DNA of 64,000 bases from Metridium senile. Lineage: Eukaryota > Cnidaria > Anthozoa > Actiniaria > Metridiidae. The position numbers and the translations under genes were made by a program. The stretch is taken from the NCBI GenBank assembly GCA_949775045.1, contig OX459096.1:47586379-47650378 (forward strand). The letters run 5' to 3'. This document shows positions 17,901-29,832 of this stretch, piece after piece (the stretch's first letter is position 1; each line of letters opens with the position of its first letter). The notes under the pieces were generated by a model. The model saw nothing but the letters and a program-made list of their open reading frames with translations, was not told the origin of the DNA and did no database searches.

Positions 17901-20175
17901 ACTTATTAATTTTGACTAGTCGGATTTCGTTAAAATAGCAATATCATTAAAACTAAATATTATTTATTAAAACCAATAATGAAAACGAAATATTTGTTTA
18001 TAAAGCTTTAAGAATATGTATACTTTATTGGGAATATATTTCAAACTGTACGCACTACGCGGCTTTCAAAAAGACACCTCGATTTTGTCCCATGTATACA
18101 GCCGCCTCCACCCCTCCAAAGACAAGAAACCGCCGATTATTATGCAACAAAGAGAGCTAAAATGGGTCAGGCTACTGAATGGTAAATACATTTTCATTGG
18201 CATTATTATATTCAAAAACAAAAGAAACCTCTGATTATTGTGCAAGAGAGAGAATAATGGGGCAGGGTAGTGAATGGTAAATATATTTTCATTTGCTGAT
18301 AACTAATTAAAGTTTGGCAAGCCTATTGCTATTATATTCAAAAACACAAGAAACCGCCGATAACTGTGCAAGAGAGAGAATAATGGGGCAGGGTAGTGAA
18401 TAGTAATTAATATATACCAGATAATCACTTCGGCACACAGCATTCGTGGGTATATAACCCCACAGCTGCCTGCAATGAATATACCCACGAATGCTGCGTG
18501 CCTCGGTAATTATCTATTAACTGTATATTGTATAAAACGGCGGGTTTATTTCAAAGTTCACGAGGAATTTTTTAATTAACAAAATTTTGTTGTAAGCCGG
18601 CGTACATGCCTGACTGAGTCTATAGAAGCATGACTATTGTGCAACTGAATACTGAAAGCCCTATTCTTTGTATATTCTTTGTCAGAAACGAATGTACAAA
18701 TATGACGTCTAATTTGACTGGATATTTTGCAGAATTACATAGAATATTACCTCCTACCAATATATGTGGCTTCATAGCTCAGTTGGTAGAGCATTGCACC
18801 AGTACTGCAAAGGTCATGGGTTCAAATCCCGTTGAAGTCCCGAATTTTTTTCGGGCTTCTATAATTGCAATTGCATAAATTGCTTATTTCTCCGCGACGA
18901 TCAAAATCATACACACATCATATAACCGCGAATCAGACCCACATACGTATCTACATAGAATTTACTCACTCATTCACGTGAAAGTATTTTTGAAAATGTC
19001 TGATACGTGCCGGATTGGAATATTTTGTGACGTCAATGACAATATTAAAATCACACCATATGTCAATATTGATAATACACCATATTATTATGCCATCCTA
19101 CCTGGCCCCTAGGAAACGGGTACCTATTTGTTTCAGAAAAATGCCATATATATAGCGCTTTTAAATTGGATGCGCAAAGCGCTTTACAATAAATAAATAC
19201 AATATAATATATAAAATTAATATGTGACAATGATAGTGATTTTTATATGACCGTGAAAGAAAAAAGACTATTTAGTTCGTACTTGTTGGTAAAGAACAAA
19301 AGAAAAAAATAGATTCAGAGTGTAATAACAACTATTAGTTTGCCAATTCTTTCACGGTCATATGAAAATCACTCTATTAACATTACTTTGAGGACTGCAT
19401 CTGTTATGTAGTAAATTGTTTTTACGATCTATCGAGCTGTTCAGCTAAATCAAGCATCGATGGTTTTACCTTGGTAGCAAAGTAATTTAGCTCTGGTTTC
19501 CACCTGATGGTTGCATAATATTCATACCATTATCTCCCCGAGCAGGAGAGGATTATTAAAACTTAATATTTGCAGAATTAATCCTATAATTATACAGTAT
19601 ACAGATCTTTTCAAATCAAATAACTCGTATTTTTATATTCATCATACATAATATATATGTTGGTTGCCATTTTTGAGCTCGCTTTCTGCAGACAGAAAAC
19701 CGTGTGAAACGGTACATTAAAAATGTCTATAGAAACTAGCGGCGGAGTAAACTATAGTATAGGCTGCGTCGGTGTTTGATACAAACGATAGGTAATATAA
19801 TAAAATTTGTAGCACCGTAAAAAATGTTGACTTAACTTCACTAAAAATGTCTTTGAAATACTTTGAAATACTTAGAAATGTCTTCTTCTTCTTTTGCCCT
19901 TTGAATCATGTAAATCATTAATTAATTTTGATCAAGTGTTGATAAATATAATTTAGCTAGGTGTTGTCCTTTGTGCAAAAGGCATTAAAACAAAATAAAG
20001 AAAGTGACTTACAAGTAGCGTTTCCAGAAACGGAGGTCTGGAGGTCCAGCATATGTACCAGCACTGGACAGCGCTTGGCATAGGAGAGTAAGGCAAGAGG
20101 TCGAAAGCAGCAGATAGAATTCGCTGCTGTTCTTGAAATAAACGGACATTTCTTGGCTAATTCTATCTTGAACAT
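11928..20175 (-). CDS. ALAS: 5-aminolevulinate synthase (ALAS), complete, seven coding exons
   Basis: ALAS condenses glycine with succinyl-CoA in the mitochondrion, the first step of haem synthesis, using PLP. Coding exons in transcript order are 20175-20013, 17629-17495, 16887-16644, 14526-14342, 13792-13542, 13091-12729 and 12257-11928. Together they encode 556 residues with every phase matching. Exon 1 is a mitochondrial presequence with two Cys-Pro motifs (KKCPFIS at 8-14, KRCPVL at 34-39), the haem-responsive type known in animal ALAS. The catalytic core begins near residue 105 (AYDFDSFF). It includes [48 protein letters not shown] and [12 protein letters not shown]. The PLP-binding Lys359 lies in TGTLGKAFG. 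The core ends with the substrate-site region [17 protein letters not shown]. Length is close to animal ALAS (about 590-640) with a shorter presequence. A second identical exon 1 lies upstream at 26078-25916. Introns carry four large tandem arrays. Confidence 0.97.
12272..12735. repeat. 50-bp minisatellite made of the ALAS exon 6 splice-donor junction
   Basis: Nine near-identical 49-50-bp periods carry CTTCTACTTACATGTACTGG at about 12320, 12370, 12419, 12469, 12518, 12568, 12618, 12668 and 12719. Read on the gene strand, each contains GTACCAGTACAT/GTAAGTAGAAG, which is the end of exon 6 plus its 5' splice site. Only the one at 12729/12728 is the true exon end. The other eight lie in the intron just after it as copies of the donor. 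An in-frame TAG in each unit means use of any later donor would truncate the protein. Confidence 0.93.
13325..13451. mobile_element. Hairpin MITE in ALAS intron 5
   Basis: The ends TACCAGTACCCAGAATGCTT and GCAAAGCATTCTGGTACTGG are near-perfect mirrors about 127 bp apart, with no coding capacity between them. The element sits between the exons at 12729-13091 and 13542-13792. Confidence 0.85.
13805..14070. repeat. GAT/AAT trinucleotide microsatellites in ALAS intron 4
   Basis: A GATGAT run and then an AAT run (about 13930-14009) are followed by GAT units to about 14038 and a degenerate tail. The poly-Asn/Asp and poly-Ile/Met ORFs over it are artefacts. Confidence 0.93.
14071..14341. repeat. 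44-bp minisatellite made of the ALAS exon 4 splice-donor junction
   Basis: Units carrying TATTACCTGGTAGATGTTGT recur at 44-bp spacing: ATTACC at 14085, 14129, 14173, 14217, 14261 and 14305, then 14337 after a 32-bp short unit. On the gene strand they read GGACAACATCTACCAG/GTAATACA, the end of exon 4 and its donor. The exon-proximal one (exon edge 14342) is genuine. Four distal units are full decoys, the 14305 unit keeps nine exon bases, and the 14085 unit has a substitution at the junction. Confidence 0.92.
14560..16345. repeat. 53-bp minisatellite, about 1.5 kb, in ALAS intron 3
   Basis: A unit containing ACCACCATCATCGTATCAAC, ATCATCATTAACACC and TTCATCCTTTTCATTATT recurs every 53 bp (for example CCATCATCGT at 15541 and 15594) from about 14780 to 16310, roughly 28 copies. 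It is flanked by ATC-rich simple sequence. Variants alternate CCTTTT/CCTCTT and AACACC/ATCACC, and some units are shortened to the form with ATCATCACCATCCTC. This makes a higher-order pattern. Confidence 0.93.
16346..16643. other. Unique part of ALAS intron 3
   Basis: This holds no exon. It contains a short fragment (CGAGAAACTATGTCAGCCGTGA reduced copy, CTAGTAGCGCAG) that is inverted again near 16520-16590 (CACTAGCTTGTATTGGCTTTTC, CTTTCTCG). A related pair lies at 500-780 in the Trio-like gene. It looks like a small inverted-repeat element of about 210 bp (16370-16585). Confidence 0.55.
16910..17445. repeat. GAAT tetranucleotide microsatellite in ALAS intron 2
   Basis: About 530 bp of GAAT/GGAT tetramers with a duplicated higher-order block: the ACGGAATGAATGAATG pattern at 17045 recurs at 17193. 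The Ile-His-Ser-Phe ORFs on the minus strand are the repeat in frame and partly run into real ALAS exon sequence at 16810-16887. Confidence 0.95.
17630..18767. other. ALAS intron 1, proximal part, with a three-copy direct repeat and a short hairpin
   Basis: From about 18120 to 18405 a segment of about 85-120 bp recurs three times (GCAAGAGAGAGAATAATGGGG at reduced length, then CAGGGTAGTGAATGGTAAAT, then CATTATTATATTCAAAAAC). At 18434-18510 the arms CACAGCATTCGTGGGTATAT and ATACCCACGAATGCTGCGTG form a hairpin. No extra exon could be supported. Confidence 0.7.
18768..18840 (+). tRNA. tRNA-Thr(AGT)-like gene, probably the head of a tRNA-derived repeat
   Basis: A 73-nt cloverleaf can be drawn. 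The acceptor GGCTTCA pairs with TGAAGTC (one G-T). The D-arm is GCTC/GAGC with loop AGTTGGTA. The anticodon stem TTGCA/TGCAA has loop CCAGTAC (anticodon AGT). The T-arm is ATGGG/CCCGT with loop TTCAAAT. The base at position 33 is C, where U is nearly universal, which argues for a repeat copy or pseudogene. A hairpin follows directly (GAAGTCCCGAA, T-rich loop, TTCGGGCTTC), and then a tail with AATTGCATAAATTGC. I recall this arrangement from repeats in anthozoan genomes. Confidence 0.65.
18841..19150. repeat. Tail of the tRNA-headed repeat and unique DNA before the duplicated block
   Basis: The hairpin at about 18834-18858 and the tail through about 18980 (GACGATCAAAATCATACAC, CGCGAATCAGACC) look like the body of the tRNA-headed element. 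The remaining bases before 19151 show no feature. Confidence 0.5.
20013..20175 (-). CDS. ALAS: ALAS coding exon 1A (proximal first exon)
   Basis: Fifty-four codons plus one base, from the ATG at 20175 to a CTACTT/GTAAGT donor. It joins in phase to exon 2 (17629), giving a Ser codon at the junction. The peptide has the Arg/Lys/Ser-rich, acid-poor look of a mitochondrial presequence and two Cys-Pro motifs. Other animal ALAS proteins use such motifs for haem-dependent control of import or turnover. Its frame and peptide are identical to exon 1B. No acceptor was found immediately upstream, so each copy is most simply a true first exon. Confidence 0.93.
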
Positions 20176-20300
20176 TGCTGTACCAGATCTGTCTTTGTTC
20201 TAACCTTCTTCCTGGCCACCAACGGCTGCAGGGGAGACTAACGTTCAAAGGGTGACTCAGGGGGGTGCACACGGGATTGGTTTATATGTTTGGTTGTGAT
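20176..20300 (-). promoter_or_regulatory. Candidate proximal promoter/5' UTR of ALAS exon 1A
   Basis: About 100 bp upstream of the ATG, the minus strand has a CCAAT box (AAACCAATCCC; plus-strand ATTGG at 20276-20280). No TATA box is placed at a usual distance, and the transcription start is unknown. Copy B has the same CCAAT box but 63 extra bases between it and the ATG. Confidence 0.4.
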
Positions 20301-29200: not shown

Positions 29201-29832
29201 AAACTAGAGAAGTGCATGAAATTTGGTAATTGTCAATTACAGGCCCAGTTGTGAGAGACGCCAATTCTGTCATATATCAAGGTCCACAAAAAGCTGATAA
29301 TTCTGATCCCTGATCCTAAAAAGCTTTAATTTGTCAATTAATGATTTGCTCTAAAATCACTGATCCGAGACGTCCTGTACAATAAACACCTAACAGGCTA
29401 ACGGAGTGTTTCATATATTTAGACCCCGGCTACACGGATCCGGATACTTTTGAAACCGCATACTTTTTGATGCGAATCGGCCTATCGTCCACACGAAACT
29501 AGTGAATCCGGTCACTGAAACCGCATACTTTTGAATAGGAAACGATCAACAGGATTCGTGTGGACGCAAATATCTCTATGCGGTTTCAGCCGGATCGGAT
29601 TCGTGTAGAAGAGGCCTTAAGCATGTTTCAAAAAAAAAAAAAATGATATAGTGTCACATTGCGTGACACACAAGATCGTGACAATAATGTGTAACAATGG
29701 ACGCGATTGTGTGATGTGAATATAGCAGTTTATTGATTAGTTTTCCGCATTGGTGGGATCTCATTAATATTGTTTTCAATCGTAAGCTGTTTTGCCTCAC
29801 AAATCAAGGACTTCATGGATTATGGAAACGTC

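Follow-up and report, generated by a model that had tools for sequence, protein, structure and literature searches.

The 64,000 bases of Metridium senile DNA analysed here (the window) hold a gene for ALAS, the first enzyme of haem synthesis, with two copies of its first exon, and thereby raise the question of whether the 5' end of this gene has been duplicated in the genome or whether two alleles of a single 5' end have been joined by the assembly. The gene is made up as follows:

20013..20175, minus strand: ALAS exon 1A from the ATG, encoding a presequence with two CP motifs
25916..26078, minus strand: ALAS exon 1B, identical to exon 1A
17495..17629, minus strand: ALAS exon 2, with an acceptor common to both first exons
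16887-16644, 14526-14342, 13792-13542, 13091-12729 and 12257-11928, minus strand: ALAS exons 3-7, from the gene model and homology

The gene body is intact, and yields seven exons and 556 amino acids from either first exon. Its identification as ALAS in the earlier note is supported by matches both to cnidarian ALAS, the best named one among the matches listed reaching an E-value of 6.3e-232, and to the structure of erythroid ALAS (5qqq), which covers the catalytic core at residues 110-514 with an E-value of 1.6e-171. Among the matches listed, the closest relatives of the protein by alignment are hexacorallian cnidarians; overall identity is 67% to Actinostola sp. and Nematostella, 65% to Actinia tenebrosa, 60% to Acropora and 54% to Dendronephthya. 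No near-identical protein, and hence no transcript of this animal, was found among the best 120 of 7,996 matches, nor among 120 of 135 in another search.

Exon 1 is a true coding exon, since it contains both CP haem-regulatory motifs, at residues 10 and 36, and because it aligns with the N-terminal presequences of ALAS from Actinostola, Nematostella and Acropora. The Pfam family Preseq_ALAS matches it at 22.8 bits (cut-off 21), and isoform X2 of Actinia in the same alignment has a different start. The two exons are letter-identical over all 163 bp and both end at a GTAAGT donor, confirming the claim that an intact exon 1 with the same ATG, donor and presequence is present twice. The feature expected of alternative first exons, a donor in phase with exon 2, is present at 1A and at 1B; the predicted splicing of both to position 17629 is likewise borne out in the gene model, with its 556 residues.

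Several further elements lie in or near the gene. Intron 6 opens with a minisatellite (12287-12744, about 50 bp, 9 copies) whose unit includes the final 12 bases of exon 6 together with the GTAAGT donor, such that the donor is repeated nine times in a row, and intron 4 opens with a 44 bp minisatellite (14076-14356) in which the GTAAT donor, preceded by the end of exon 4, recurs about seven times. No such repetition is seen at the donors of exons 2, 3 and 5, and no report of minisatellites copying splice donors was found in the literature searched. In the ALAS model of Actinostola, a long low-complexity stretch is inserted exactly at the counterpart of the exon 6/7 junction, and is perhaps read-through of a repeat-rich intron 6 in that species too. 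Intron 3 holds 29 copies of a 53 bp minisatellite (14756-16313), and intron 1 a plus-strand tRNA-Thr (AGT) gene (18768-18841). Beyond the gene, an uninterrupted single-exon reading frame on the minus strand (6713-7738) has no Pfam match itself; its database relatives carry PF25987, the closest named one among the matches listed being from Actinia tenebrosa (59% identical), and its positions 6713-7726 match nine contigs at 100%, the longest of 2,027 bp, an indication that short sequence from this genome exists.

The two first exons lie within two adjacent blocks between ALAS exon 2 and a divergent gene:

19151..24976, minus strand (that of ALAS): block A, comprising 862 bp of intron 1, exon 1A and its upstream region
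25109..29832, minus strand: block B, comprising 807 bp of intron 1, exon 1B and its upstream region
30334..33047, plus strand: 5' part of the divergent RHOBTB-like gene, with a Ras-type domain and a first ATG at 30334; beyond it lie BTB pieces, at 33661-34326 and 36654-36965

Self-comparison of the window places the start of the homology at 19151 and 25109 and its end at 24976 and 29832, giving lengths of 5,826 bp for A and 4,724 bp for B; together with the alignment, it reproduces exactly the coordinates and shared orientation given in the earlier note. The description of the blocks as the same sequence holds only in part: they are direct tandem copies, but they are not identical. Across 4,612 aligned columns there are 46 substitutions (26 transitions and 20 transversions), which corresponds to 99.0% identity outside indels, or a divergence of 1.0%, and 18 indel events separate the copies, in 10 of which B lacks the bases and in 8 of which A does. 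The largest of these leave B without 52, 58 and 1,072 bp and A without 64 and 31 bp. The homology is far too long for a chance match; apart from it, the long ones among the 80 longest self-matches of the window are minisatellite arrays. Adjacent copies in one orientation, as expected of a real tandem duplication, are thus present. The duplicated unit is larger than the promoter and presequence to which it had been limited, and also takes in part of intron 1 (0.8-0.9 kb) and the greater part of the spacer that separates ALAS from its neighbour: ALAS and the RHOBTB-like gene stand head to head, and block B reaches to 501 bp before the ATG at 30334.

Three of the differences between the copies are of particular use in telling them apart:

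23170..24241, unstranded: transposon-like insert of 1,072 bp confined to A, with short inverted repeats at its ends, a target-site repeat of 9-11 bp and an empty site in B
26157..26220, minus strand: 64 bp unique to B, lying 79-142 bp ahead of the ATG in the alignment
20230..20242 (26133-26145 in B), minus strand: four substitutions 55-67 bp upstream of the ATG, further markers that distinguish the leaders

The inverted repeats of the 1,072 bp insert (CAATCTCG/CGAGATTG), its target-site repeat and the empty site in B together identify it as a mobile element gained in A, and the two copies have therefore had separate histories. The B-only stretch near the ATG had been proposed as a diagnostic 63 bp at 26158-26220; it does exist, but measures 64 bp and begins one base earlier, a single G being common to both edges. 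It lacks a target-site repeat and shows microhomology of one base, and its loss from A would be the simpler reading. Exon 1 lies within the longest stretch of identity (447 bp), but no special protection of the exon by selection or conversion is claimed, as such a run has a chance probability of about 0.13 (a hand estimate from 64 differences in 4,612 bases). Elsewhere in the blocks, a small MITE-like inverted-repeat element with 27 bp arms (19235-19373) is whole in A and lacks part of its right half in B, and a near-perfect palindrome in A (22491-22574) keeps one arm in B, with similar sequence at 58297-58341.

The origin of this arrangement turns on the sequence between the blocks and at their outer edges:

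24977..25108, unstranded: junction of 132 bp, consisting of 18 bp (24977-24994), (TAA)35 (24995-25099) and 9 bp of retroelement-like tail sequence (25100-25108)

The (TAA)35 tract is a perfect microsatellite of 105 bp, and the nine bases that follow it lead into a sequence that both blocks have at their left edge, with a (TAA)n tail at B and none at A. This left-edge sequence with its tail is read here as a putative retroelement relic; elsewhere in the window it finds short, weak matches only (77-87% over 30-53 bp). Another long TTA array is present at 32174-32285, which shows that arrays of this kind are not rare here. At the junction, nothing matches the left flank (19050-19160). The flank to the right of A matches that to the right of B over 40 bp at 72.5%, 13 of which fall inside the block, a score reached in 402 or 197 of 5,000 shuffles and at 180 or 85 of 5,000 window positions (two scorings); the resemblance is weak, and the right of A may be a diverged allelic form of the right of B.

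With the tandem anatomy, the identical exons, the in-phase splice sites and the separate later histories of the copies established, the locus probably represents a hexacoral ALAS gene whose 5' end has genuinely and recently been duplicated in tandem, by unequal exchange at a (TAA)n repeat. A retroelement bearing a (TAA)n tail would have inserted, on one chromosome, just to the right of the block, after GGAAACGTC. This element could then have paired, on the other chromosome, with an older relic of its family that lay at the block's left edge and had no tail, and unequal crossing-over between them would yield the order left flank, A, hybrid element, B, right flank. Such an exchange would account for the right edge of A running into a (TAA)n tail while that of B runs into unique DNA, as well as for the relic having a tail at the left edge of B and none at that of A. 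In two corals, according to PMC10236652, tandem gene duplications are common, and a long read covers 70 and 91% of the adjacent pairs.

The strongest alternative, although on balance it appears somewhat improbable, is a false (heterotype) duplication in which each haplotype has one block, A being derived from one and B from the other, and the two have been joined at the (TAA)n array. The divergence of 1.0% is at or below the heterozygosity reported for other hexacoral species, 1.1-3.8%: two corals have 2.3 and 1.14% (PMC10236652), Edwardsia elegans 2.5% (PMC12053456) and two Palythoa about 3.8 and 3.4% (PMC11413580). Insertions with empty sites and indel differences are also typical of alleles, the join falls in a perfect 105 bp microsatellite, where assemblies break, and PMC9516828 documents false exon gains of this kind. 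Furthermore, coral tandem duplicates and alleles are very distinct in Ks in PMC10236652, and by that contrast the pair is allele-like, or else a very young duplicate. However, there is no assembly gap between A and B, the window being free of N throughout its 64,000 bases. PMC9516828 lists haploid depth, a gap or depth gap, and discordant pairs as the signs of false duplication, and reports a gap in most cases, some being joined by sequence without read support. The absence of left-flank sequence at the join also speaks against joined alleles. Finally, the assembly is contiguous through a 1.56 kb minisatellite, which suggests that long reads were used, and, if so, an overlap of 105 bp should not have misled it.

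A further alternative, which is unlikely and overlaps with the favoured reading, accepts the duplication as real but holds that one first exon only is used, or that the duplication is on one chromosome only, the other copy being inert. The copies differ near the ATG by the 64 bp and the four substitutions, the upstream copy must be transcribed through the other one, and an allele-specific tandem duplication within one contig is reported in PMC9516828. Yet the TATAAA words, the ATG, the exon and the donor have been kept in both copies. A homotype artefact, in which a single sequence was assembled twice, is ruled out by the 46 substitutions, the 18 indels and the insertion with its target-site repeat.

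If the locus is indeed a real duplication, transcription could start at either first exon. Two TATAAA words are kept near exon 1 in each copy, the nearest to the ATG at 20286 in A (111 bp upstream) and 26253 in B (175 bp upstream); a bacterial promoter scan is uninformative for an animal gene. A transcript from 1B would read through block A and, provided that exon 1A is skipped along with the intron, both mRNAs would encode one 556-residue pre-enzyme carrying both haem-regulatory motifs. Should the nearest shared TATAAA set the start, the mRNAs would differ in the leader alone, that of B being 64 nt longer. One candidate acceptor, at 20579, was found in the 725 bp scanned upstream of exon 1A; its use would make exon 1A internal, and the resulting mRNA would meet a stop after 72 codons. 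The duplication is likely to affect the amount or place of expression, or to have no effect.

The motif TGAGTCA is the core of AP-1/NF-E2 sites. It occurs at 20259 in A, at the point where the 64 bp are missing, and its core is absent from B in the stretch that was scanned; a looser MARE-like match is present in B at 26213, inside the 64 bp. The absence of these bases from A would both shorten the leader and bring TGAGTCA together. Both words are too short to prove anything, and it is very doubtful that two working promoters under different control feed the one ALAS body, with A stress- or redox-responsive and B retaining an older mode. If true, the first step of haem synthesis would have been re-wired by promoter duplication with the protein untouched.

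An iron-responsive element in the leader was also considered and was rejected: a loose pattern occurs in A some 500 bp before the ATG, at 20669, and not in B, and Rfam at gathering scores returns a single tRNA and nothing else from the whole window. PMC3904948 describes an element of medium quality in a sea anemone ALAS leader. At relaxed scores, Rfam gives no iron-responsive element in B (25900-26600), where the hits are chance-like and far below the cut-off.

UGT1A and the clustered protocadherins are genes whose first exons have been multiplied by tandem duplication. The ALAS locus resembles them in having more than one first exon, each preceded by an upstream region of its own, and one common body. 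Unlike in those genes, the first exons of ALAS number only two and have identical coding sequence, so that no protein variety results, and their use is predicted here. If the duplication is real and used, it would constitute a natural experiment in an early-branching animal lineage, in which the dose or place of the first haem enzyme has changed while the protein has stayed the same. No report of a duplicated ALAS first exon was found among the titles listed in literature that lies mostly outside the subscription journals.

PMC3904948 describes control through the first intron and alternative first exons in genes of the haem pathway, and as in those genes, the choice of first exon is proposed here as a control point of haem synthesis; the difference lies in the DNA concerned, which there is conserved first-intron DNA of vertebrates and here a duplicated exon. 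If A and B are instead two alleles, the locus would be a clear case of a plausible regulatory story arising from a diploid assembly. It shares with the false exon gains of PMC9516828 its adjacent copies, its allele-like divergence and the doubling of one exon of one gene, but unlike them, the ALAS copies adjoin without an assembly gap between them.
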